A stretch of 64,000 nucleotides of DNA from an uncultured Ruminococcus sp. (GTDB taxonomy: Bacteria; Bacillota; Clostridia; Oscillospirales; Ruminococcaceae), in the NCBI GenBank assembly GCA_902788785.1, contig CADALT010000002.1, forward strand, positions 6,017 through 70,016, written 5' to 3'. The notes under the pieces were generated by a model that was given only the letters and a program-made list of their open reading frames with translations, searched no databases and was not told where the DNA came from. Every line of letters starts with the position of its first letter. The first letter of the stretch is position 1. The translations under genes were made by a program, and so were the position numbers. Positions 12,822 to 53,785 of this stretch are shown piece by piece.

Positions 12822-13826
12822 ATGAATTGTCCAATATGCGGCACACCCCTGAAAGACAACGATCTATTCTGCAATAACTGCGGCACAAGGCGAGTTGAGA
12901 TGGGCGCTGCCTATAATCGAAATAAACCCGTGAAGACCACAAACTACGGCAGCAGCTACTCAAATAATTACAGCAGTAATGGTGCGCAGAATAACTATAA
13001 CTCCCAGAACACCGCAGGCTATAACTACGGTGCGCAGAATAACTATAACTCCCAGAACACCGCAAGCTATAACTACGGTGCGCAGAATAACTATAACTCC
13101 CAGAACACCGTAAGCTATAACTACGGTGCGCAGAATAATTATAACTCCCGGAATACTGCAAATTATAGCTACGGTACTACCAACAGCTTCGGTCAGCAGA
13201 ATACAGCTAACTTTGGCTATAAAGCACAGAATAATTACGGCTCGAACAGTAACATTCTTAAAAGTGTCGGCGCATGGTTCGTCGATGCATTCACATCGAG
13301 AACTTTTTCTTCACGCTTGAAGATAAGGCTCATTGCTGTGGTCGTAGCGCTGGTCATCTCAGGTGTCGCAGCACTGTTCTCCAATCGTAAGATGGAGAAG
13401 GATTTCAATGATTTCACCATAACATTCCCACAGAGAATGAAAGAGAAGGATTATTCGGACGACATTGACGAGGACTGTGATGAGAGCGGAGCGTTCTATG
13501 GCAATAATGTCGGCTTTGTTTACGCTAAATATCCGCTGGAAGAGCTGGAGCTCGAGAGTGACGGCAGTTCGGATTACGAGAATATTTTTGCCGAAGAGAT
13601 GAGCTCTGTATTTGAATATTCATATAACAATTATCAGCAAATCATCCTGGTAGGCAATAGATTAACAGGTCGTTTCACCGAAGAAGGCGATCAATACTAC
13701 ATCGTTGCACAGGCTGAACGACACGGCGATGATATGTATTTGTTCGAGGCTCTCTGTTCCGCCGATGACGAACAGAAATATAAAGTCAAAATGGGCTATA
13801 TGCTCGATTCGATCGAATTCAAATAA
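12822..13826 (+). CDS. Zinc-ribbon membrane protein with Asn/Tyr-rich repeats (paralogue 1 of 3)
   Basis: A 334-residue protein. The N-terminal zinc ribbon is C3-x2-C6 ... C17-x2-C20. Residues about 50-145 form a low-complexity region rich in Asn, Tyr and Gln with a 16-residue tandem repeat (QNNYNSQNTAxYNYGA). A single membrane segment lies near 174-192 (RLIAVVVALVISGVAALF), followed by an outside domain of about 140 residues beginning DFTITFPQRMKEK. ATG 12822 follows AAAAGGAG. The zinc ribbon would face the cytoplasm. The family is common in Firmicutes but of unknown function. It is first of three tandem paralogues that share the ribbon-linker-membrane-outer domain plan. Confidence 0.85.
   Translation: MNCPICGTPLKDNDLFCNNCGTRRVEMGAAYNRNKPVKTTNYGSSYSNNYSSNGAQNNYNSQNTAGYNYGAQNNYNSQNTASYNYGAQNNYNSQNTVSYNYGAQNNYNSRNTANYSYGTTNSFGQQNTANFGYKAQNNYGSNSNILKSVGAWFVDAFTSRTFSSRLKIRLIAVVVALVISGVAALFSNRKMEKDFNDFTITFPQRMKEKDYSDDIDEDCDESGAFYGNNVGFVYAKYPLEELELESDGSSDYENIFAEEMSSVFEYSYNNYQQIILVGNRLTGRFTEEGDQYYIVAQAERHGDDMYLFEALCSADDEQKYKVKMGYMLDSIEFK
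12981..13172 (+). repeat. 48-bp in-frame tandem repeat, four copies
   Basis: Copies start at 12981, 13029, 13077 and 13125 (GGTGCGCAGAATAACTAT...). The first three are nearly identical and the fourth has diverged; a fifth degenerate copy starts at 13173. Because 48 is a multiple of 3, copy number can change without breaking the gene. Confidence 0.95.
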
Positions 13827-22636: not shown

Positions 22637-22685
22637 AGTCTGTTATTATAATGTTTCTATATCTGTATGTCTACCAATGACCATT

Positions 22686-22988
22686 GGCGTCCCGGGCTAG
22701 AGTTTACTACCTTTAGTGCCAAACTATTGAACGCTGCCGAGCGCCTATCTATGCCATCAAACCAAAAGCCGTAACGAGTTGGCTTCCCGGGCTAGAGTCT
22801 ACTACCTTTAGTGCCAAACTATTGAACGCTGCCGAGCGCCTGTCTATGCCATCAAACCAAAAGCCGTAACGAGTTGGCGTCCCGGGCTAGGGTAAACAAA
22901 CTATGTTTAAAAACTATATTTTTGCTACCGAGCGCCTTTTTTATCTATTAAACAAAAAGGCGTAACGAGTTGGCGTCCCGGGCTAGGG
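22686..22988. repeat. Repeat array A: three units of a 95-bp structured repeat
   Basis: CCCGGGCTAG occurs at 22691, 22786, 22881 and 22977, giving unit lengths of 95, 95 and 96. Each unit then carries a variable centre, CCGAGCGCC, a TCTAT block, GTAACGAGTTGGC, and the next CCCGGGCTAG. The first two units are nearly identical; the third has a different centre. GGCG before each CCCGGGC can pair with CGCC after CCGAG. The last CTAG supplies the TAG stop of the gene at 22983. The same family occurs at 43709-44020. No function is known to me. Confidence 0.93.
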
Positions 22989-38659: not shown

Positions 38660-39133
38660 TTGGAACTTAACAAGAGATTGTTCGCAAAGGTGTTCGTAAG
38701 GACACGAAACGGTTCGGAGACAGCGGTGAGGCTGGGGGCACAGCCCGAGAACGCAAAACTCATCGAGGCTGAACTGCTGGCGGATCCAAACGTCAAAAAA
38801 GCCATACGTAAACTCGACAAGGAGGACGTGCAGACACTGTGCTATGTAAAAACAGGTCTTTCACGGCTTGCCTTCGGCAGTATCAACGAGGCTGCGGCGC
38901 TGGTGTTCGCAGATGAGGTCAGCAGGGATGAGATACTGAAAGCGGACTTGTTCAATGTATCTGAACTAAAGAGGATCAAGGGCGGCGGTGTTGAGATGAA
39001 GTTCTTTGACAGGCAGAAAGCGCTGGAAAAGCTGGTGGAACTCGACCCCGATCTGAGGGAAGTCTCGGCGGCGCAGGAGTTTTTGAATGCGGTGTACGGG
39101 TCGGACGACGAAACGGGCGGTGATATGGAATGA
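38660..39133 (+). CDS. Phage terminase small subunit
   Basis: A 157-residue DNA-packaging recognition protein of the Terminase_2 type. The N-terminal helix-turn-helix includes TRNGSETAVRLGAQPENAKLIEAELLADPNVKKAIRKL. It starts with TTG at 38660 after GGAAAGGG. Its stop overlaps the start of the large subunit (ATGATG), which identifies it by position as well. The C-terminus is acidic, as in partners that dock on the large subunit. It marks the left end of the phage cassette. Confidence 0.85.
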   Translation: MELNKRLFAKVFVRTRNGSETAVRLGAQPENAKLIEAELLADPNVKKAIRKLDKEDVQTLCYVKTGLSRLAFGSINEAAALVFADEVSRDEILKADLFNVSELKRIKGGGVEMKFFDRQKALEKLVELDPDLREVSAAQEFLNAVYGSDDETGGDME

Positions 39134-40362
39134 TGTTCTCGCAAAAGCAGAGGTTCTTGTTCAGATGGTGGAAAAGCAAGAAGTACAGGGGCTACGACGG
39201 CATAATCTGTGATGGTGCGGTGAGGTCGGGGAAGACCTCGTGCATGGGAATGAGTTTCATTTTATGGGCGATGCTGGGTTTCGATAAACAGAACTTCGGG
39301 CTTTGCGGCAAGACAATGATCTCACTTAGGAGAAATCTGGTGACGGACCTGAAACGGCGCTGTGCGGACATAGGTATCTCCGTCAGGGAGAACATGACGA
39401 AAAACTATCTTGATGTGACCCTGGGGCGAAAATCTAACAGATTTTATCTGTTCGGCGGAAAGGACGAGAGTTCGGCTTCGCTGATACAGGGTGTGACGCT
39501 GGCGGGGATACTGATGGACGAGGTGGCACTGATGCCACGGAGTTTTGTGGAACAGGCGGTGGCGAGGTGTTCGGTGACGGGGGCGAAGCTATGGTTCAAC
39601 TGCAACCCCGATAATCCCTACCACTGGTTCAAGCGTGAGTGGATAAACAAGGCGGAGGAGAAAAAGCTGATATACCTGCATTTTGACCTGAAGGACAATC
39701 CATCGCTGGGCAAAGAGGTGATAAACAGGTATGCAAGGCTTTACTCGGGGGCGTTTTACGAGAGGTTCGTGCTGGGCAGATGGACGGCGGCAGAGGGGCT
39801 TATCTACCCGATGTTCAGCGAGAAGCGGCACGTCTGCAAAAATCTGCCGAGGGAGTTCGAGCGATACATCATCAGCTGTGACTACGGCACGGTGAACCCA
39901 TCAAGCTTCGGGCTGTGGGGGCTTAGCGGCGGCAGGTGGTACAGGGTGAGGGAGTATTACTACGACTCGGTCAAGGAGGGCACACGCCGCACGGACGAGG
40001 AACACTATACGGGTCTGGAGGAACTGGCAGAGGGGGTGAATGTGGGATTTGTGGTATGTGACCCGTCGGCGGCATCGTTCATACAGTGCATCAGGCGGCA
40101 CGGGAAGTTCAGGGTAAAACAGGCGAACAACGATGTTATCTCGGGGATAAGGCGGACGCAGGACTTCATAAGGGACGGCAGGCTGATGATACACGAAAGC
40201 TGCAAGGACATACTCAGGGAGTTTACGCTGTACCGCTGGGACGAAGGTGCAGGCAGAGACTGCCCCATAAAGGAATACGACCATGCCATGGACGACATGA
40301 GGTACTTTGTGGGTGCAGTGGACGATGACGAGTGCTTGGGGTTTGCGGCGATTAGTGTGTGA
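39130..40362 (+). CDS. Phage terminase large subunit
   Basis: A 410-residue packaging ATPase-nuclease, PBSX/XtmB type. The Walker A is GAVRSGKTSCMGM near residue 30-42, the Walker B-like GILMDEVALMP near 130, coupling CNPDNPYHWFK, and nuclease Asp residues in IISCDYGTVNPSSF and EYDHAMDDMRYFV. It cuts and pumps DNA through the portal. The length is normal, and no frameshift or stop is seen, so it is probably functional. It overlaps the small subunit by 4 bases. Confidence 0.95.
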   Translation: MMFSQKQRFLFRWWKSKKYRGYDGIICDGAVRSGKTSCMGMSFILWAMLGFDKQNFGLCGKTMISLRRNLVTDLKRRCADIGISVRENMTKNYLDVTLGRKSNRFYLFGGKDESSASLIQGVTLAGILMDEVALMPRSFVEQAVARCSVTGAKLWFNCNPDNPYHWFKREWINKAEEKKLIYLHFDLKDNPSLGKEVINRYARLYSGAFYERFVLGRWTAAEGLIYPMFSEKRHVCKNLPREFERYIISCDYGTVNPSSFGLWGLSGGRWYRVREYYYDSVKEGTRRTDEEHYTGLEELAEGVNVGFVVCDPSAASFIQCIRRHGKFRVKQANNDVISGIRRTQDFIRDGRLMIHESCKDILREFTLYRWDEGAGRDCPIKEYDHAMDDMRYFVGAVDDDECLGFAAISV

Positions 40363-40390
40363 CAAGAGGGAATGAGAACAGGAGGTATGT

Positions 40391-41560
40391 ATGAGATTTT
40401 TCGGAAAAAGGAATGATGTGGAAAAGCACGTCAGGAGCGTATTTTCTGCAGAACGGGAGGAAAGCCCTTTCAGGCTGGCGGCTGATGACGGCATACTGGA
40501 AAGCGGTATCTACGACGGGCTGAGGGCTTGTGTACCCGTGATCGACGCTTGTTTCGGGAAGATAATCAGGCTGACGGGGGATTTCAAGGTATATGCCAAT
40601 GATGAGGAATATCAGCAGGAGCTTGAAAATTTCTGCCGTGAGGTGACGGTGGGGATATCGGGCAAGTCGCTGAACACCTTTGCGGATATGTATCTGGACA
40701 GTCTGCTGACCTACGGGCGTGCGGTGGGCAGGGTCATAAAGGACAAGGAGACCATGACGGTCAGGGGAGTGGTCGTGGGGGACAGCAGTATGTTCCGTGT
40801 AAAACAGGGCAAGGGAGAGCTTGACAAGGAGTTCTGCTTTACGGGGAGGGGCAGCGAGATAGAGGTGCCCGAGCCCGAAAGTCTGCTGTATACCACGTTA
40901 AATCCCAGTCCCAGGCACCCCGACGGAGTTTCGATACTGCGTGGACTGCCTGCAATGAGTCAGATACTCATGAGGATATACCAGTGCATCGGGCAGAATT
41001 TCGACAGGGTGGGCAATGTGAGGTACGCTGTGACCTACAAGCCTGCGGAGGACGGCTCGGACAAGCGCTTCGCAAAGGAGAGGGCGCAGGAGATCGCCGA
41101 GGCATGGTCGGACGGAATGCAGAGCGCAAGGAACGGGATAGTCAAGGACTTTATCACGGTGGGAGATGTGGATATCAGGGTGATAGGTGCGGAAAACCAG
41201 CTGATAGACACTCAGGTGCCCGTAAGACAGCTGCTCGAACAGCTAATAGCCAAGTTATCCGTGCCGCCGTTTTTGCTGGGACTGAACTGGTCAACGACGG
41301 AGCGCATGAGCAGTCAGCAGGCGGACATACTGACCAGTGAGCTGGAGTATTACAGAAGGCTGCTGGAACCTGTACTGAGAGATGTGTGCTGCGAATTCCT
41401 GAAAAGCTGCGGTACGGACTGCGGAGTAAGGATAGAGTGGGCAAACATAAATCTACAGGACGAGGAAGCGCTGGCTAGGTCAAGGCTGTACAATGCGCAG
41501 GCGAGAGCGAAGGAGCTTGAAAATGCGCAGCTGGAAAGCCGCTTGGGTCTTAGAGAATAA
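40391..41560 (+). CDS. Phage portal protein
   Basis: A 389-residue portal protein, the dodecameric channel at the capsid vertex. Support includes GLRACVPVIDACFGKIIRLTG near the start, VRYAVTYKPAEDGSDKRF, and the loop SVPPFLLGLNWSTTERMSSQ typical of portal families, then an Asn/Gln-rich helical end. It is shorter than SPP1 gp6 and closer to PBSX XkdE-like or HK97-type portals. AACAGGAGG precedes the start. It follows the terminase by 28 bases. Confidence 0.9.
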   Translation: MRFFGKRNDVEKHVRSVFSAEREESPFRLAADDGILESGIYDGLRACVPVIDACFGKIIRLTGDFKVYANDEEYQQELENFCREVTVGISGKSLNTFADMYLDSLLTYGRAVGRVIKDKETMTVRGVVVGDSSMFRVKQGKGELDKEFCFTGRGSEIEVPEPESLLYTTLNPSPRHPDGVSILRGLPAMSQILMRIYQCIGQNFDRVGNVRYAVTYKPAEDGSDKRFAKERAQEIAEAWSDGMQSARNGIVKDFITVGDVDIRVIGAENQLIDTQVPVRQLLEQLIAKLSVPPFLLGLNWSTTERMSSQQADILTSELEYYRRLLEPVLRDVCCEFLKSCGTDCGVRIEWANINLQDEEALARSRLYNAQARAKELENAQLESRLGLRE

Positions 41561-41571
41561 GGAGGGATACG

Positions 41572-42411
41572 ATGAGTGAGGTAAACATAGGCATCACTAA
41601 GGAGGTCATGGACAAGATAAATGTCCATAGCGTGAGTGAGCTGAAAGCCGAGCAGGTATACTGTTTCAGAGTGCTGCTTTGCGATAATGAGGTAGACAGG
41701 GACTTTGAGAAGTTCACGAGAAAGTCGCTGGAAAAGCTGGCGGAGCTGTTCGTGGGGCGCACGGGCATATTCGACCACAACAATCAGAGCGGCGGTCAGA
41801 CGGCACGCATCTACGAGACAGAAGTGGTGGACTTTCCCGACAAGACCACTGCTGACGGCGAGGTGTATTCGGCGCTGATGGGCTATGCTTACATGGTCAG
41901 GACCGAGCAGAACAAGGCTCTGATAGCGGAGATAGAGGGCGGCATCAAGAAAGAGGTATCCGTGGGATGCTCGGTGAAAAAGCGCATTTGCAGCATATGC
42001 GGTGCTGACGGGGCAAAGGGCGGCTGTTCACACCTGCGTGGGAAGACCTACGGCGGCAGACTGTGTTTTGTGAAGCTTGAAGAACCTGTGGACGCTTACG
42101 AATGGAGCTTTGTGGCTGTGCCTGCACAGAGGGCTGCGGGGGTGACTAAGGTATATGCCGAGGGCGGCAGCGAAGATACCGAGAACCGCAGACTTATGGA
42201 AATGGCTGATGCTGCCTGCGATGAGCTGAGGGCGGATATAATAAGGCTCGGGTGTTTTCTGGGCGGTGAGGCTTATGATGCACAGGGAATGGATATTTAC
42301 GGGCTGATACGTCTGAAGCGGCAGCTGGAGAAGGAGCTTAGAAGCAAAAACTCGGGCGGCAGCCGCAGGGTCAGTGTGAAAAAGGAAGCTGACTTATCAT
42401 TCAAGGTATAG
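41572..42411 (+). CDS. XkdF-like prohead protease/scaffold protein
   Basis: A 279-residue protein matching the place and style of PBSX XkdF and related prohead proteins: VDRDFEKFTRKSLEKLAELF, GRTGIFDHNNQSGGQTARI, EVSVGCSVKKRICSICG and WSFVAVPAQRAAGV. An inserted CSIC...CSH cluster (about 137-153) could bind zinc. A protease role at capsid maturation is likely but I cannot identify the catalytic residues with confidence. The C-terminus is a basic coil (LKRQLEKELRSKNSGGSRR), which may serve as scaffold. Confidence 0.75.
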   Translation: MSEVNIGITKEVMDKINVHSVSELKAEQVYCFRVLLCDNEVDRDFEKFTRKSLEKLAELFVGRTGIFDHNNQSGGQTARIYETEVVDFPDKTTADGEVYSALMGYAYMVRTEQNKALIAEIEGGIKKEVSVGCSVKKRICSICGADGAKGGCSHLRGKTYGGRLCFVKLEEPVDAYEWSFVAVPAQRAAGVTKVYAEGGSEDTENRRLMEMADAACDELRADIIRLGCFLGGEAYDAQGMDIYGLIRLKRQLEKELRSKNSGGSRRVSVKKEADLSFKV

Positions 42412-42677
42412 CGGAGAAACAGGGCGGCTGAGGATATTATCGGGACGGGAGCGATGCAGCACGAAATAACATAAATGTGGTGCGAGGGTGAGCCGCCTTG
42501 GCAGGGGACACTTATGCAGGGCTTTAAGGAAAGCAGGATAGCTGCGTTTAGCAGGAAAGAGAATGGGGCATTTCGGAAAAGGCTGATAAGTGTAGTAAAA
42601 TTTGGATAGTACCGCATCTTTTGAGGTTCTGCCGTGGGGTGCGGTGAAAGATGGACGGCAGAAGAAAGAGAGGAAAT
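42412..42677 (+). other. Gap between XkdF-like gene and capsid gene
   Basis: Some 266 bases without a convincing gene. A 31-codon frame starts at the ATG near 42512 (MQGFKESRIAAFSRKENGAF) but lacks a ribosome site. The DNA is not AT-rich, so it may be a decayed scaffold gene. Confidence 0.35.
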
Positions 42678-43652
42678 ATGTATAACGACGTAAGACTTGA
42701 CAAGGGATTTTACAACATCACAGGCAAGACCTTCACACAGGTGCTCACAGAGCTTGACCCTGATGAGGGCTACAGAGACAGCGAGCTTGCAGGGCTGGAC
42801 GCTTTTGAAAGACAGCTCAAGAGGTTCGATATAAAGGTCAGCGGTGAGAGATGCGACACGGTTGAGAAGTTCTTTGCGACTACGCAGTCGGCGGTGCTTT
42901 TCCCTGAGTACATCAGGAGAATGGTGAAGAAGGGCATAGATAGTGCGTGCATCGCTGACGGCATATTTGCGGCGGTGGGACACATAGACGGTATGGATTT
43001 CAGAAGCTTCTACATCACAGTAAACGGTTCTAACCCTATAGCACAGAATATTGAGCTGCCTACCACCGAGGTAAAGCTGGCAAACAGTTCGGAAGAACTT
43101 AAAAAGTTCGCAGGACAGATAAAGTGTTCTTACGAGGCCATCAGAAAGCAGCGCCTGGACGCATTCGGTGTTATCGTCAGAGAGATGGGCGCAAGGATTG
43201 GCAGAAGCATCAACATACAGATATGCAGCCAGCTTTCAGCAGGCATAACACCTACTACCACAGCAGATACTTCAATAACCTATGCAGATCTGGCAACATT
43301 CTGGGGCAGCATGACCAACAACAATATGGACGTTATGATCTGCCCTCCTGCGCTTATGGCAGAGATACTGGCGCTGCCCGAGATGAAGTACTGTGTCAGC
43401 GATTACATGGTGAGCGGCAGGGTGAAGACCCCTTACGGTGTCACCATCATCAAGTGCTCGCAGGCTGATGACGACACTATCATAGGTCTTGACAGCACTG
43501 CGGCGGCAGAGCTGATACTGGGCACCGACATCATCGTTGACCACAACAAGATCATCAACAAGCAGAGTGAGGATATCACAGCATCTATTCTTGCCAACGT
43601 AAGCAAGCTCACAACTGCGGCGATCAAGGTACTGAAAGTAAGGACAGCCTGA
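42678..43652 (+). CDS. Phage major capsid protein
   Basis: A 324-residue protein, identified as the capsid subunit by position after portal and XkdF-like genes, by length, and by its mixed alpha/beta composition with a long N-terminal region and the middle block QIKCSYEAIRKQRLDAFGVI...ARIGRSINIQIC. The segment DVMICPPALMAEILALPEMK resembles the HK97-fold A domain of XkdG-type capsids. ATG 42678 follows AGAGAGGAA; the frame is open to 42651. Codon use is more even and highly expressed in style than in the flanking phage genes. Confidence 0.8.
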   Translation: MYNDVRLDKGFYNITGKTFTQVLTELDPDEGYRDSELAGLDAFERQLKRFDIKVSGERCDTVEKFFATTQSAVLFPEYIRRMVKKGIDSACIADGIFAAVGHIDGMDFRSFYITVNGSNPIAQNIELPTTEVKLANSSEELKKFAGQIKCSYEAIRKQRLDAFGVIVREMGARIGRSINIQICSQLSAGITPTTTADTSITYADLATFWGSMTNNNMDVMICPPALMAEILALPEMKYCVSDYMVSGRVKTPYGVTIIKCSQADDDTIIGLDSTAAAELILGTDIIVDHNKIINKQSEDITASILANVSKLTTAAIKVLKVRTA

Positions 43653-43708
43653 TCTTATAGTTTAAATCATGTGGGTGGGCGGAGGGGATTTTTTATTTCA
43701 TGATTCCG

Positions 43709-44020
43709 GGCGACCCGGGCTAGGGTACCTATGTAACACAGCTGTGTATAGCTACCGAGCGCCTGATTTATCTATTAAGCGAAAAGATGTGACGAGATGG
43801 CGACCCGGGCTAGGGTAGGCTACCTGCGATGACAGGCTATTGAATGCTACCGAGCGCCTGATTTATCTATTACACGAAAAGATGTGACGAGATGGCGACC
43901 CGGGCTAGGGCGATCCGGGCTAGGGTAGGCTACATTTAATGACAGGCTATTGAATGCTACCGAGCGCCTGATTTATCTATTAAGCGAAAAGATGTGACGA
44001 GATGGCGTCCCGGGCTAGGG
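43709..44020. repeat. Repeat array B: three units of the 95-bp structured repeat
   Basis: CCCGGGCTAG (or a one-base variant) occurs at 43714, 43804, 43899, 43914 and 44009, giving steps of 90, 95, 15 and 95. Each unit has a variable centre, GCTACCGAGCGCC, TGATTTATCTATTA, GATGTGACGAGATGGCG and the next CCCGGGCTAG. GGCG and GGTA before the centre pair with TACC and CGCC after it, and the first centre forms its own stem (ACACAGCTGTGT). The family also forms array A at 22686-22988. The last copy runs directly into the GGGGGG ribosome site of the next phage gene. Confidence 0.93.
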
Positions 44021-44028
44021 GGGATTTT

Positions 44029-44406
44029 ATGTTGGATAAGAATAATGTTAAGGCTTTTATGTTACAGCTGGCAGGGGGAGACCCCGAGCACAGTGACGAG
44101 AGTATGTTCATCATCGACTGGACGATACGTGATCTGGAGGACAGGCTGGATGCGGACAAGGTCGGGACGGAGTACATCAGAGACTGCGAATATGCGGCTG
44201 CCTGCATTGCGCTGTACGAATACATCTGCCGTGAAGCAGGCAGGGAGCAGGTGACTGTAACGGCTCAGGGTAAGGCGGACGAGAACGCCGACTTTACCCA
44301 CCGCATACGCAGTGCAAAGGAGTTGAGGGACAGTGCACTGGAGCGCATTGGCAGGCTCATGAAAGGCGAAGATTTCCTGTTTAAGACGATGGGAGGCGAG
44401 AGCTGA
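44029..44406 (+). CDS. Phage head-tail connector protein (gp6-like)
   Basis: A 125-residue helical protein in the place of HK97 gp6/XkdH-like connectors, with MFIIDWTIRDLEDRLDADKV and a helical end RSAKELRDSALERIGRLMKG. It would form a ring under the portal. ATG at 44029 is preceded by GGGGGG, which is formed at the end of repeat array B; ATG 44002 in frame lies inside the repeat and is unlikely. Assignment is by position and helical content; it is not certain. Confidence 0.7.
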   Translation: MLDKNNVKAFMLQLAGGDPEHSDESMFIIDWTIRDLEDRLDADKVGTEYIRDCEYAAACIALYEYICREAGREQVTVTAQGKADENADFTHRIRSAKELRDSALERIGRLMKGEDFLFKTMGGES

Positions 44407-44846
44407 TGGAAGAATATGAGGTGCAGGACAAGCTGGATACCGCAGGGGTGATAAGCAGTATATCGGGAATGCTGGAGGAAGAGGGTTTCAGAGCGTTTGA
44501 AGAGTTCACGGCGGTGGACACAAGACAGATACGCAGCTGTGCGGCTTTCATCTCGGTGGAGAAGATAAGGCTGGAGGACATGGGCAGACGTTTTGGAGCA
44601 GGTGAGGCGAGGGTCAGTCTGGAGCTGACGGTGCGCATCAGGCTGATGGGCAGGATCTGCGGCTACGGGGACTACAGGGAGTTCAGCGACAGGTGTCAGG
44701 GATTTTGTGCGGCAGTGGTCGGCTGGGGGAGTAACAAGCGCATAGCTGCGGAGCTTGGCAAGACTACACGCTGCGAACAGCAGAAACGTCTTGAACGAGA
44801 GGTCGTGCTGAACATCGGGCTGTGCATGAAGGAGGCGGTGGAATGA
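44406..44846 (+). CDS. Phage tail-completion-like protein, 146 residues
   Basis: An acidic, Cys-containing 146-residue protein. Its ATG shares a base with the previous stop (TGATG). The sequence EEEGFRAFEEFTAVDTRQIRS and RVSLELTVRIRLMGRICGYG gives the helix-then-beta plan of small tail completion or terminator proteins (XkdJ-like). No strong family motif is seen. Position between connector and tube-like gene supports the call. Confidence 0.6.
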   Translation: MEEYEVQDKLDTAGVISSISGMLEEEGFRAFEEFTAVDTRQIRSCAAFISVEKIRLEDMGRRFGAGEARVSLELTVRIRLMGRICGYGDYREFSDRCQGFCAAVVGWGSNKRIAAELGKTTRCEQQKRLEREVVLNIGLCMKEAVE

Positions 44847-45217
44847 GATTCATCATCTGCTCACAGAACAGGCATACGCTGGTCTGCGGACAGCTGACGC
44901 TGTACCCCGAAAGCGTCAGCTTAGTGCGAAGGGACACTTTCCATGAACTGGAAGAGGTCGGCGGAGGAACTTCGCTGTTTACAAACGGTCCTATCGGGCT
45001 GGATATAGTGGTGACAGGGCAGTTCTCGCCTGACGAGAAGGCGGCGCTGGATAATTTCATACTCTTCCATGCAACGAACGATGACGACATCATCATAGAC
45101 GGGAAGAACTATGGCAAACTGGTACTGCGTGAGGCGAGTTTATCCGAACAGCAGGGCGATGTGACGGGCAAGTACCGTTTCAGGCTGGGCGGATACGAGC
45201 TGAATTATCTGGTATAA
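44843..45217 (+). CDS. Tail-tube-like or baseplate-like protein, 124 residues
   Basis: A 124-residue beta-rich protein. ATG 44843 overlaps the previous stop (ATGA). GGGTSLFTNGPIGLDIVVTG and DDDIIIDGKNYGKLVLREAS resemble the short beta units of tail tube-fold proteins. It is not recognised with certainty. It is followed after 12 bases by the hub-like gene, with no tape-measure gene between them, which is unusual. Confidence 0.55.
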   Translation: MRFIICSQNRHTLVCGQLTLYPESVSLVRRDTFHELEEVGGGTSLFTNGPIGLDIVVTGQFSPDEKAALDNFILFHATNDDDIIIDGKNYGKLVLREASLSEQQGDVTGKYRFRLGGYELNYLV

Positions 45218-45229
45218 AGGGGGGAGGAT

Positions 45230-46171
45230 ATGAGTTTTGTACTTATACTTGATGTGGCATACGAGGAGGAGATAGTCAGGTACCGTTTCGAGAGCAGCCT
45301 GGGTTTTGTTTTCGAGAAGGCGCTGTACTTACCGTATACGCAGTTCAGCGGAACTTTCATCGGTCAGGTGGAAGCGCCCTTTGAGGCGGCGCAGGTACAG
45401 TGCGTTACAGCGGAATACAGGAGCAGAATAGTGCATTACGGTATGCCTGACAAGATAGTGGTAAAGCAGGAAAAGAGCCATTATAAGGTCACTGTGACAT
45501 CACGCAGCTACACTATGCTGCTGGCGCAGAACGAGCCCTATCCACGGATAAACACGAATGTGACATTGCAGAGCCTGTGTCAGCGAAATCTTGTCTGCGA
45601 CAGGATAAGCTACGAGGACCCGACACCGCAGGTGGGGAACATATATGTCAGGGAACATTCGACGGTATGGGACGCTGCGGTGGCTTACTGCATAAAGGCA
45701 AGCGGAAGATACCCATACATCAGCGGCTGCAACACGGTGATGATGACGGTGGGAGACAGGCGCAATGTGGATATTTCGGGGAAGGTGCTGCTGGAAAGGG
45801 GCAGCGAGGCACAGTCGGGCAGGATACTCTCGGACGTGTACATGAAGGAACTTGATGACGACTATCCCTTTGAAGCGCACGATACCTCGGCGGCATCTAT
45901 GGGGATTGTCAGGACGAGGTATTATCCGCTGGATATGCAGTGGCTGTACGACCCGCAGGTGGGCTTACAGCACAAGCTGGATATAAGCAACCGTGCGGCA
46001 AAGGTGAAAAGCTGCTCGTATTTAGGATACCTGGGAGAGGATCTTATGGATACTGTTACGGGAGGAGGCATGAGCGGCAAAAGGATAAACAGCATAAGAG
46101 TAAAGGGAAGCTCGGAGGGCGTTATAACGACGCTCAAGGCTTACGATGACAGATACGGACAAAGGAGCTGA
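45230..46171 (+). CDS. Phage tail hub-like protein (XkdQ/gp44-like)
   Basis: A 313-residue protein with the plan of late-control/hub proteins: a beta-rich N-terminal tube-like part, then TVTSRSYTMLLAQNEPYPRIN, NVTLQSLCQRNLVCDRI, and a lower domain with WLYDPQVGLQHKLDISN. Such proteins form a trimer at the tail tip and carry the spike. Start has GGGGGGAGGA. The XkdQ/gp44 comparison rests on these motifs and position. It directly follows the tube-like gene. Confidence 0.65.
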   Translation: MSFVLILDVAYEEEIVRYRFESSLGFVFEKALYLPYTQFSGTFIGQVEAPFEAAQVQCVTAEYRSRIVHYGMPDKIVVKQEKSHYKVTVTSRSYTMLLAQNEPYPRINTNVTLQSLCQRNLVCDRISYEDPTPQVGNIYVREHSTVWDAAVAYCIKASGRYPYISGCNTVMMTVGDRRNVDISGKVLLERGSEAQSGRILSDVYMKELDDDYPFEAHDTSAASMGIVRTRYYPLDMQWLYDPQVGLQHKLDISNRAAKVKSCSYLGYLGEDLMDTVTGGGMSGKRINSIRVKGSSEGVITTLKAYDDRYGQRS

Positions 46172-46178
46172 GGAAAGT

Positions 46179-46502
46179 ATGATAGTTATTGCAGGCGATC
46201 ATGTATCGCTGCCGGCAGGAAATCTGCTGGGGAACAAGGGCGATGATATGATATACGATCATAAGATCATACACCCGAAGATCGAGGGTGCGAGGTTTTT
46301 CTTCGGGCTGCAGAGGACGAATGAACTGGTGATCTTCGAGATAGAGGAGGACGGAACTTTTCATACGCCTGCGGTGATGATGGCTGAGTCAGGCGAATTC
46401 ACGGCGCAGGTATGGGCGGAAAAGAGTATATCGGACAGGGTGACAAGGTACTGGACCTCGGAGAAATTCACGGTAAGGGTCGGTACGGTACTGCACCGGT
46501 AG
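46179..46502 (+). CDS. Small baseplate/fibre-like phage protein, 107 residues
   Basis: A 107-residue beta-rich protein. ATG 46179 follows GAGGAAAG; the frame extends upstream into the hub gene but the ribosome site decides. The fold-like blocks GARFFFGLQRTNELVIFEIEE and SGEFTAQVWAEKSISDRVTR resemble the beta-sandwich domain of BppU-type baseplate proteins. It may contact the host surface or cap the tail. Not recognised firmly. Confidence 0.55.
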   Translation: MIVIAGDHVSLPAGNLLGNKGDDMIYDHKIIHPKIEGARFFFGLQRTNELVIFEIEEDGTFHTPAVMMAESGEFTAQVWAEKSISDRVTRYWTSEKFTVRVGTVLHR

Positions 46503-46530
46503 AACAATGATGACCTTCTTTGAATAGAAT

Positions 46531-46560
46531 AGTGCAAGCCCGGCTGTATGCGGTCGGGCT
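46531..46560 (+). terminator. Hairpin before the lysin gene
   Basis: CAAGCCCG and CGGGCTTG form an 8-base-pair stem with a 10-base loop followed by TTTT. It could end most structural transcripts and lower lysin expression. Confidence 0.65.
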
Positions 46561-46585
46561 TGTTTTGGCAAAGGAGGAAAAAGCT

Positions 46586-47467
46586 ATGGCAGTCAAGGGT
46601 ATAGATGTATCAAAATGGCAGGGAGAAGTTGACTTTCGCAAGGTAAAGGCGGACGGGTACGACTTTGTCATAATAAGTGCGGGGTACGGTATGTACAGCT
46701 GGCAGAAGGACAGTTATTTCGAGACAAACTACAAAAACGCAAAGGCGGCAGGTCTGGGAGTGGGGGCATACTGGTACTCCTATGCGGTGAACAGACAGCA
46801 GGCAAGGGAAGAGGCGAGGGTCTTCCTGGAGGCGGTGGAGGGTAAGGTATTTGACTATCCGCTGTGTTTCGATATTGAGGACAGTTCGCAGGCAGGGCTT
46901 TCACGGGAGGTCATCGGGGAGATGATAGAGGAGTTCTGCACCTATCTGGAGGACAGGGGGTATTATGCGGCGCTGTACAGCTATGCATATTTTTTACAGA
47001 ACAGGGTGCCCGAGTGGTGCAGGCAGAGGTATGATGTGTGGGTGGCGGCATTCGATGTGGATAAGCCGCCTTACAGCGGAAACTACGGTATGTGGCAGTA
47101 CACTTCGTCGGGACGGGTATACGGGGTGAACGGCAGGTGCGACTGCGACTATGCCTACAATGATTATCCTGCGATAATGGCTGAATACGGGTTGAACGGC
47201 TATGGAGAGGTGAGCAAGCCCGTGCTTGACAGTGAGGGCTACCGTATCGGTGATGAGGGCATCGGGGTATATGGGATGAAAAGGCTGATAATGCTGGGGT
47301 ACAGGCTGGGCATGGTGAGTGCGGAGCTTGGAGATCACGGATATTTCGGGGAAGGCACTGATACCGATGTGAACGAACTGCTGGAAAGCTGGGGATATAG
47401 ACCTGACGGCACAGCAGGGGAGAACTTCATGAGAAGGCTCTGGCAGGAGCTGGAAAAGAAAATATGA
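46586..47467 (+). CDS. GH25 lysozyme (endolysin)
   Basis: A 293-residue muramidase. The GH25 barrel spans about 1-190: GIDVSKWQGEVDFRKVK with the first acidic residue, DFVIISAGYGMYSW, CFDIEDSSQ (catalytic Asp/Glu) and the WQYTSSGRV end. Residues about 215-290 form a C-terminal domain with GDEGIGVYGMKRLIMLGYRLG that resembles a peptidoglycan-binding domain. No signal peptide is present and no holin gene is seen nearby. ATG 46586 follows AAAGGAGG. It ends the cassette. Confidence 0.93.
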   Translation: MAVKGIDVSKWQGEVDFRKVKADGYDFVIISAGYGMYSWQKDSYFETNYKNAKAAGLGVGAYWYSYAVNRQQAREEARVFLEAVEGKVFDYPLCFDIEDSSQAGLSREVIGEMIEEFCTYLEDRGYYAALYSYAYFLQNRVPEWCRQRYDVWVAAFDVDKPPYSGNYGMWQYTSSGRVYGVNGRCDCDYAYNDYPAIMAEYGLNGYGEVSKPVLDSEGYRIGDEGIGVYGMKRLIMLGYRLGMVSAELGDHGYFGEGTDTDVNELLESWGYRPDGTAGENFMRRLWQELEKKI

Positions 47468-52114: not shown

Positions 52115-53785
52115 TCAGACTATAGCTTTGATGCCCTTTATGTGTGCAGCTATGATGGCGATATCGGAAACTGTCATTTGACCATCGTTGTTTACGTCTG
52201 CTGCGGCGAACTGGGCTTCGCTCATTGCCTTGATGCCCTTGATATGGGAAGCGACCACAGCGATGTCGGAAACATTTATGCTGCCGTTCAGGTCGGCATC
52301 GCCCTTCATTACGCTTACGTTTATCTTGCCGTCAGCCTTTGAGGAAGTATCATCGGGTTTGCTGTCGATCTTGGAGTCAGCTTTGCTGTCTGATTTAGAG
52401 TCGGGTTTACTGCCGATCTTGGAATCAGCCTTGCTGTCTGTTTTGGACTCGGGTTTGCTGCCGGTCTTGGAATCAGCCTTGCTTTCTGTCTTAGACTCTG
52501 GTTTACTGCCGATCTTGGAATCAGCCTTGCTGTCTATCTTGGACTCTGGTTTGCTGCTTATCTTGGAGTCGGTCTTGCTGCTGGACTTAGAGTCAGCTTT
52601 GCTTTCTGTTTTGGACTCGGGTTTGCTGCTTATCTTAGAGTCGTTCTTGCTTTCGGACTTGGAGTCGGTCTTGCTGCTGGACTTAGAGTCAGCCTTGCTT
52701 TCTGTTTTGGACTCGGACTTGCTTTCTGTTTTGGACTCGGATTTGCTTTCGGAAGTGCTGTTGTTATTGCCGTTCAGCTTATCCTTTCTTACGGGCATGG
52801 AGCCTGCTTCCGTAGCATCTATGGTGAGCAGACCTCTATCGGTAGCAAAGTATGTGAAATCGTGCTTTGCCGCATAGTCGGCTGCCTTTTTCATTATGCT
52901 TTCATCATCGGTATATTCGAGCATATAAACGTCCTTGCCGACGCTGTCTACCTTTTCGCAGTACTCTTTGTAATACTTTGAATCTCCGCCTGTCTGAGCT
53001 TTGAATACTCTCAGGTCATCGGGATCGGCATCAAAGTCGATCTCTCCGAATACGGCTTCCTGATTTATGCCGTCGATGATACCGTCAAGCGTATCGTGAC
53101 CTTCCAGTGCGAAGCCAAAAGGTTCATCATTGTCATCGGTATCCTCGGGATCAACACCGTCGATATAGTCGAATACAAAAGTGTCTCCTCCGTTTATGAG
53201 CACATAGGGACTGTTGCCCGTATTGGTCTTCAGGCTCTTATAGCCTTTCAGTATCCTCTCGACACCGCCGAAAATATTTTCGGGCTTTATCTCTGTATCA
53301 ACATCTATAGAGTCTCTGACTTCCTTGGATACATAGTAAACATCGGTGTTGTCAACAAAGAAACCGTCTATGCCCTTATCGAGAAGTTCTTGCGCAAGAT
53401 CGGTCTGGAAGTCGTACCATTTATCGGTGCTGACATCTACCCATCTTTCACGAGGCCAGTCCTCATAAGGCGCAAAGGTAAGTGCCTTGTATTCGTTGTA
53501 GTATGGGCGGTTGTCCTCGATAGAACCGAGGTTTATGTAGCTGTATACCGTATGGCCGTTATCTTTGAGACGCTTGATCTCTTCATCGGTATAGAACTGT
53601 GCATCGAGCACGATGATCCTGTAGCTCTCAAACTTTTTAAGTGATTCTTCACCATTCGCACTTAAAAACACACCGTATTCATACTTGATCTCATCCTCGG
53701 CATTTGCTATCATCGGGACAGCCGAAATACCCATTGCTGCCGCAACTGCTGCTGCGGTCAGTCTTGCTGCAATTTTATTAGTCAT
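52115..53785 (-). CDS. Secreted GH114-like glycosidase with Ser-Lys linker and type I dockerin
   Basis: A 556-residue exported protein. The signal peptide is 1-29 (AAVAAAMGISAVPMIANA). Residues about 36-340 match GH114/TM1410-type endo-alpha-1,4-polygalactosaminidase-like domains: RIIVLDAQFYTDEEI, SYINLGSIED, GIDGFFVDNTDVYY, VLINGGDTFVFDYIDG. Residues about 345-475 are a four-residue xxSK repeat linker. The last 60 residues form a dockerin with two Ca-binding repeats (DADLNGSINVSDIA, DVNNDGQMTVSDIA). It should dock on a cohesin scaffold and cut galactosamine-containing polysaccharide; the substrate is inferred. AAAGGAGG precedes the start. Confidence 0.9.
   Translation of the reverse strand: MTNKIAARLTAAAVAAAMGISAVPMIANAEDEIKYEYGVFLSANGEESLKKFESYRIIVLDAQFYTDEEIKRLKDNGHTVYSYINLGSIEDNRPYYNEYKALTFAPYEDWPRERWVDVSTDKWYDFQTDLAQELLDKGIDGFFVDNTDVYYVSKEVRDSIDVDTEIKPENIFGGVERILKGYKSLKTNTGNSPYVLINGGDTFVFDYIDGVDPEDTDDNDEPFGFALEGHDTLDGIIDGINQEAVFGEIDFDADPDDLRVFKAQTGGDSKYYKEYCEKVDSVGKDVYMLEYTDDESIMKKAADYAAKHDFTYFATDRGLLTIDATEAGSMPVRKDKLNGNNNSTSESKSESKTESKSESKTESKADSKSSSKTDSKSESKNDSKISSKPESKTESKADSKSSSKTDSKISSKPESKIDSKADSKIGSKPESKTESKADSKTGSKPESKTDSKADSKIGSKPDSKSDSKADSKIDSKPDDTSSKADGKINVSVMKGDADLNGSINVSDIAVVASHIKGIKAMSEAQFAAADVNNDGQMTVSDIAIIAAHIKGIKAIV
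52362..52763 (-). repeat. Ser-Lys linker repeat region
   Basis: A 12-bp-based repeat encodes about 30 units of the pattern xxSK (ADSK, TESK, PESK, IGSK and others), with longer 36-60-bp blocks repeated several times. Such arrays change length by slippage or recombination. Confidence 0.9.

Follow-up and report, generated by a model that had tools for sequence, protein, structure and literature searches.

A BOX- and MIRU-like interspersed repeat family in an uncultured Ruminococcus sp. whose near-constant terminal hairpin suggests spread by a dedicated mechanism

BOX elements of streptococci are short, interspersed and modular repeats with a boxA-(boxB)n-boxC layout and a variable number of tandem internal modules (extract of PMC3049150), and the mycobacterial interspersed repetitive units (MIRU) of Mycobacterium tuberculosis are minisatellites that vary in copy number, are mostly intergenic and are thought to be transcribed within operons (extract of PMC3635867). 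Here, we analysed a 64,000-nucleotide (nt) stretch of contig CADALT010000002.1 from an uncultured Ruminococcus sp. (assembly GCA_902788785.1), referred to as the window, which holds two tandem arrays, A and B, of one dispersed repeat family. In layout, this family appears closest to BOX and MIRU, a likeness from which we claim membership in neither. Compared by layout, it shares with BOX the many dispersed intergenic copies and the variable tandem modules (1 to 8 boxes, with unit numbers varying at orthologous loci), but differs in having no visible terminal inverted repeats, no folding excess in its own genome, and a near-constant 3' hairpin with variable 5' ends. Compared by description, it resembles MIRU as a set of dispersed intergenic tandem repeats with copy-number variation. 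MIRU unit sizes are similar to those of the Ruminococcus repeat, and we are not aware of MIRU having a terminal hairpin whose stem covaries.

Our preferred interpretation is that the Ruminococcus family represents a new form of BOX/MIRU-like interspersed repeat, which would be spread by a dedicated activity. Among the matches listed for open-licence PubMed Central (PMC) texts, none was a printed description naming such a repeat in Ruminococcus. To our knowledge, the way in which small non-coding repeats colonise bacterial genomes is unsettled outside the cases driven by insertion sequences (IS) or by the transposases associated with repetitive extragenic palindromic sequences (RAYT).

Copies and ends of the repeat in the Ruminococcus genome

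The assembly that contains the window (part of its contig C2) comprises 2.95 Mb in 67 contigs and is 91% complete. A 220-nt piece of array B gave 54 BLAST matches in this genome, and the exact 16-mer GGCGWCCCGGGCTAGG occurred 71 times, compared with 0 for its reversed control and 0 in 28 other genomes of the genus. Within the window, CCCGGGCTAGGG was matched ten times at up to two mismatches, and none of 100 shuffles reached as many. Because of these shuffles and the 16-mer counts, chance is excluded as the source of the likeness between arrays A and B. The original prediction that the same repeat family occupies both sites was thus borne out: array A carries units like those of array B, and both belong to one dispersed family, neither similar by chance nor of independent origin.

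In the whole genome we read 27 arrays, two of them at contig edges, with 1 to 8 boxes each; one further array on contig C22, with another hairpin, was kept outside the 27. The period over 60 aligned units was 95 nt in 43, 96 in 8, 94 in 6, 93 in 2 and 90 in 1. Each unit consists of a core of ~65 nt and a spacer of ~30 nt. The cores are conserved in blocks and run from box A (TACCGAG) through a T/A-rich middle to box B (GTRACGA), ~35 nt past box A, and on to a 3' hairpin. Units within arrays are in direct orientation, and the ~30-nt parts are similar to each other across loci, a property by which an array resembling clustered regularly interspaced short palindromic repeats (CRISPR) was rejected. 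A coding repeat was also rejected, as 95 is no multiple of 3 and the box holds TAG. Copies are dispersed and intergenic and, with neighbouring genes called by our own open reading frame heuristic, have right-hand neighbours on both strands.

The full 11-nt hairpin box, CCGGGCTAGGG, is terminal in 19 of the 27 arrays; it is the last detected box in 21, of which L025 and L026 continue for one unit with a variant hairpin. Four arrays have 10 of the 11 box letters at the end, including one that its contig cuts short; the last element of L018 is a duplicated box; and the variant-hairpin ends are GTCCGGCCGAGGAC at L024 and L025 and CCTGGGCTAAGG at L026. Upstream of the first box, similarity begins anywhere between 3 and 91 nt away, one of these limits coinciding with a contig edge; in seven arrays the distance is 49-60 nt, close to box A. 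The arrays thus have a nearly constant 3' end but a variable 5' end. The CCCGGGCTAG block, earlier singled out as a possible unit of recombination or binding, is indeed special in being the usual 3' end of arrays, and duplication of the box alone, as in the 15-nt step of array B, recurs elsewhere as 10-nt steps in L015 and L018. As to features of miniature inverted-repeat transposable elements (MITEs), positions 43400-44300 of the window held 0 inverted repeat pairs, and the 5' ends of the arrays vary.

The near-constant terminal hairpin suggests that the family spreads by a dedicated and perhaps novel mechanism between genomic sites. With a probability of roughly 0.55, we favour a family of small non-coding interspersed repeats acting as a non-autonomous mobile element. 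What is transmitted would be the ~65-nt core (box A, T/A-rich middle, box B and short 3'-terminal hairpin), copies of which would be placed in intergenic DNA with a near-constant 3' end and a variable 5' end. Arrays would grow in tandem when another core is added next to a resident one, leaving ~30 nt between the two (65 + 30 = 95), and would afterwards gain, lose and exchange units via recombination. Movement of the copies may be due to a dedicated activity that recognises the 3' hairpin.

A second hairpin-rich repeat (CATCAGC...GCTGACG...GACGCTT and variants) is fused to the core exactly at CGAGCGCC in L017, L022, L025 and L033, as if it were an alternative 5' module of the core. At L013 (2110-3315) and L018 (4094-4725), arrays point outward around related DNA, and part of the inner DNA of L013 recurs inverted. 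An element of greater size, bounded on either side by arrays (contigs C42 and C13; L013 and L018), was rejected as a general vehicle, full-length matches of the inner DNA being found only there.

The terminal hairpin and relatives in other genomes

Whole units of the own genome folded no better than shuffles (mean z +0.16 for the given strand and -0.27 for the other; 60 units, 40 shuffles each), their alignment contained no long covarying helix, and Rfam at gathering score reported only four tRNAs in the window and nothing in 11 loci holding arrays or units. These three results ruled out a structured RNA over the whole unit. Column covariation reflected mainly haplotype blocks, with one pair-like signal between columns 6 and 17, which are the two ends of that hairpin in the box. 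The box hairpin, CCC-GGGCTA-GGG, is unchanged with that loop in 48 of the 60 units and shows the paired change TCC/GGA in 4 (one with a loop change too), while 8 have unpaired or wobble changes (CCC/GGA 3, TCC/GGG 2, CCC/GAG 2, CCT/GGG 1); its covariation within the own genome is weak. Pairing of GGCG with CGCC and of GGTA with TACC, reported earlier as kept within array B, is present in all three of its units (the TACC being that of box A), but did not hold as a constraint on the family: GGTA follows the box in 22/60 units and is combined with box-A TACC in 20/60, and GGCG occurs with CGCC in 51/60, the remaining 9 being altered on one side only. Nor is the hairpin word CACAGCTGTGT, ascribed to the first unit as its own, restricted to it, as it is also found in two units of another array. 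The structural constraint is within the box block, as the small hairpin CCC-GGGCTA-GGG, whose counterpart in a second genus changes with compensation.

This second genus was recognised when a sequence-only unit model, run over 148 genomes of the taxonomic family, gave six matches in G128, a genome from another genus, and single weak ones in G123 and G156. G128 carries a 95-nt tandem repeat with the same boxes TACCGAGC, AACAAA and CGTAACGA. A joint model at E <= 0.05 yielded, for the second genus, 52 matches in G128 (one of the two genomes behind the model, so that its count arises partly by construction), 38 in G411 and 25 in G283, along with 2 in G217, 0 in G333 and 1 in G374. For each copy, the best hairpin was then taken from the 25 nt that start 9 nt after the start of box B, with the downstream window and shuffled letters as controls. 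Stems of at least 5 base pairs (bp) were present in 52 of 60 second-genus copies versus 3/60 for the downstream window and 5/60 for shuffled letters, a count that includes orthologous copies separately and therefore represents fewer independent changes. There were 33 distinct best hairpins in this genus, a few away from the expected place, for example GCGGGG-GCT-CCCCGC, GCACGG-GCT-CCGTGC, GCGGGT-GCT-ACCCGC, CCGCG-ACCA-CGCGG and GTGCG-GTCA-CGCAC. In the own genome (104 copies), stems of at least 4 bp were found in 33 copies versus 12 and 19 in the controls, and at 15 sites of Ruminococcus albus and other congeners in 9 versus 2 and 1.

Across 28 congeners, the joint model gave three strong matches in G001, four weak ones in G017, single weak matches in nine genomes and none in seventeen. 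The G001 array (contig C241; L034 and L035) reads like the array on contig C12 of the own genome, perhaps owing to contamination (7% in the G001 assembly) or recent transfer, and G001 was left out as a second species carrying the element. At E <= 0.001, none of 295 genomes sampled from the order, apart from the own genome, yielded two or more matches. A second hairpin-type pattern (GTRACG-N9-GTCCGNCCGAGGAC, two mismatches) was found five times each in G022 and G017, three times each in G005, G027 and the own genome, and once in G015; its reversed control had 3 hits, all within the other 23 genomes. G022 shares an identical stretch of 1,001 bases with plasmid NC_014825.1 of Ruminococcus albus 7, and the arrays of R. 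albus 7 have a similar layout, with steps of 93 and of 176, the latter interpreted as a pair of 88-nt units. The joint model, R2, did not score the R. albus units (nothing better than E 0.5 there), and four G017 units reached 17-18 bits; judged by their common TACCGAG, GTRACG, spacing, hairpin and period, the R. albus units are probably related by layout.

The distribution of transposases bears on a further possibility, a repeat of the type of repetitive extragenic palindromic (REP) sequences and bacterial interspersed mosaic elements (BIMEs) that is mobilised by a RAYT, a Y1 transposase. REP/BIME copies are likewise numerous, dispersed, hairpin-bearing and arranged in composite arrays (extract of PMC2817692), and a dispersed, intergenic, hairpin-ended family would suit such an enzyme. 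The domain Y1_Tnp (PF01797), however, is absent from the own genome (G000, 91% complete), G128 (98%) and G283 (75%), occurs once in G411, and is present in several copy-poor congeners, e.g. G005 and G008; three of the four copy-rich genomes thus lack it. In addition, the Ruminococcus units are direct instead of alternating and do not show the GTAG-plus-hairpin arrangement of the REPs tabulated in the available part of PMC2817692, and we consider mobilisation by a RAYT highly improbable. Y1_Tnp is also absent from the copy-poor second-genus genomes G217, G333 and G374.

A functional cis element under selection, e.g. a hairpin of the 3' untranslated region or a terminator module at gene ends, would account for the block-wise conservation of the cores and for array 3' ends that touch neighbouring gene signals. 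In L017, L022 and L028, the 3' end of the array is directly followed by the stop codon of a convergent gene, and in L011, L012, L027, L029 and array B by an apparent ribosome-binding site. Inspection by eye also showed that second-genus DNA before box A often resembles the other arm of a terminator hairpin. Yet the right-hand neighbours lie on either strand, close species lack some copies at the corresponding position, own-genome units fold no better than shuffles, no terminator-like site was found at array B, and three of six sampled second-genus species have 0-2 matches. Taken together, these observations make selection for a cis function an unlikely explanation.

Site comparisons between close species

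In G128, G283 and G411, species that are about 93% identical, many loci align along long flanks at about 86-97%. L141/L180 has two units in one species and a shortened array in the other, and at L138/L163 and L149/L170/L183 the hairpins differ and the flank is joined at the same place. Nine loci were sought across the three genomes for filled versus empty sites. The cleanest cases were L145 and L139, with a shorter site in G128 and both flanks retained. At L167 and L157, the spacer or terminator sequence differs in the relatives; at L181, G411 and G128 have the filled site and G283 is short of one unit between direct repeats; all three genomes have L187, with a 17-nt difference; only one flank was found for L156 and L188; and L162a, a two-unit array, was a replacement. 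The flanks of L157, L159 and L162 contain another dispersed second-genus repeat (AAAACGAAAAG...AAGGCAAACGAGCGA...), which matches many places in G128, G283 and G411.

After removal of duplicates that share the 14 nt behind the hairpin, 51 second-genus copies remained, and these 14 nt were compared with the sequence 20-37 nt ahead of the core. In 6/51 copies, 10 or more of the 14 positions matched (permutation mean 1.3; six reached in 0 of 500 permutations); three copies reached 12 matches (2/500) and two reached 13 (5/500). A first version of the test had revealed a like trend in the second genus (49 copies). The best three matches were all at 29 nt: L141 (14/14), L162 (13/14) and L146 (12/14). 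L162 is a single core between 25-nt direct repeats (one mismatch), located after a terminator-like hairpin and without an upstream unit.

Duplications of this length might be produced by an element resembling short interspersed nuclear elements (SINEs), in which an enzyme would recognise the 3' hairpin, copying from a fixed 3' end would give variable 5' truncation, and insertion would leave a target duplication of ~29 nt. If so, repeated insertion beside an earlier copy would build the 95-nt period from the 65-nt element and ~30 nt of duplicated target. We regard this particular route as doubtful and know of no bacterial small repeat that moves in a SINE-like way. The regular ~30-nt intervals and the ~29-nt flank duplication at few loci also recall CRISPR and casposons, and Cas1-type integration yields long duplications; unlike in CRISPR, copies of one element make up the ~65-nt parts, and the ~30-nt parts, too, are alike across loci.

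Orthologous loci that differ in unit number could also be expected of a passive minisatellite, i.e. old dispersed copies that change only by slippage and homologous recombination, without dedicated mobilisation. In line with this, some arrays lie at synteny changes, L152 combining the left flank of L146 with the right flank of L142 (an assembly error is possible), and flank-like spacers at L141, L146 and L181 fit tandem duplication of a core plus ~30 nt. Passive change would leave unexplained the seeding of 27 arrays, the near-constant 3' end with variable 5' ends, and the single core of L162 in its 25-nt direct repeat with no upstream unit, and we treat it as a tentative alternative with about one chance in four.

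Several observations weigh against the non-autonomous mobile element that we prefer. Fairly clean short sites are restricted to L139 and L145; L167, L157 and L162 look as if part of a terminator or spacer had been replaced, and L181 could reflect a deletion between direct repeats. Because the copy-rich second-genus genomes G128, G411 and G283 are fragmented (about 100-290 contigs), junctions at repeats in this genus could be assembly errors. Flank duplication concerns few loci, and at the 11-match level the three copies observed were equalled in 11/500 permutations. As L141 and L146 have a unit or remnant upstream, tandem duplication of a core plus ~29 nt also explains them. The own genome showed no clear flank duplication (22 terminal copies; observed mean 6.6, permuted 6.0), and stems of at least 5 bp occur there in 3/104 copies versus 1 and 4 in the controls, the box hairpin being 3-4 bp. 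No mobilising gene was identified, Y1 transposases being the enzyme class searched.

The host species are close enough for filled sites to be compared with shorter or empty ones; owing to these close hosts, the near-constant 3' end and the compensating hairpin, the mode of spread is directly testable. The repeat provides the stop codon of at least one gene (at array A) and adjoins several ribosome-binding sites, and so may affect gene expression in these gut bacteria.

Array B, array A and their neighbours

Table 1. Positions of repeat features and flanking genes in the 64,000-nt window
Feature	Position	Strand	Description or evidence
Array B	43704..44020	+	5'-truncated first-unit remnant, three units of 90, 95 and 95 nt, and a 15-nt additional copy of the box
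Array B, unit 1 core (box A TACCGAG to 3' hairpin)	43752..43814	+	model R2, 50.3 bits
Array B, unit 2 core	43847..43910	+	model R2, 52.2 bits
Array B, box and 15-nt duplicate (CCCGGGCTAGGGCGATCCGGGCTAGGG)	43899..43925	+	array reading, TRF
Array B, unit 3 core, hairpin box CCC-GGGCTA-GGG at array 3' end	43957..44020	+	model R2, 52.4 bits
G-run starting inside terminal box of array B, ending 5 nt before ATG 44029	44018..44023	+	
Upstream flanking gene, phage major head protein	42651..43652	+	phrog_3922 1.8e-65, PF25209 2.1e-13
Downstream flanking gene, 125-amino-acid protein	44029..44406	+	no family match
Array A, same family as array B	22684..22988	+	three units, steps 95, 95, 96; antisense to both neighbours
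TAG stop codon of saccharopine-dehydrogenase-like gene	22983..22985	-	from CTAG of last box of array A

The blocks, coordinates and steps first proposed for array B were reproduced, with box starts at 43714, 43804, 43899, 43914 and 44009 (steps 90, 95, 15 and 95). Its orientation, sense to both neighbours in array B and opposite in array A, was likewise as predicted, and the occurrence of both orientations together with the 27 arrays upholds the view that the element is not simply a cis leader. Regarding its placement between capsid and connector genes, the upstream gene does encode a major head protein; a connector downstream was neither supported nor excluded, and the 125-amino-acid protein had no Pfam or PHROG match. 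The G-run before this gene appears to sit at the expected position of its ribosome-binding site. An additional in-frame ATG lies at 44002, within the last repeat unit, and the protein could start there, inside array B.

The array is located in a short phage-like cluster (38660-47467) between a GGDEF/EAL gene and a WG-repeat gene. The cluster contains small and large terminase, portal, an unknown PHROG, the head protein, five unknown genes and an endolysin, and no tail gene was recognised among the proteins scanned. Array B is one copy of the family inside a prophage gene cluster, probably with transcriptional read-through. Phage and plasmid collections gave no match at E 0.01, in a search that is blind to the distant R. 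albus plasmid copies. Five viral contigs, two of which are the same sequence, each held a single exact box without a neighbouring unit, and none of 26 loci with a related head protein (20 genomic and 6 viral, some overlapping) had an array there, a single weak 24-position model match lying elsewhere in L110. A phage-borne family is not supported, given the lone boxes in viral contigs and the head-protein loci without arrays.

Elsewhere in the window, positions 52353-52752 and 12981-13175 hold 24/48-nt tandem repeats, one within a GH114-dockerin gene (52115-53785) and one made up of four 48-nt copies.
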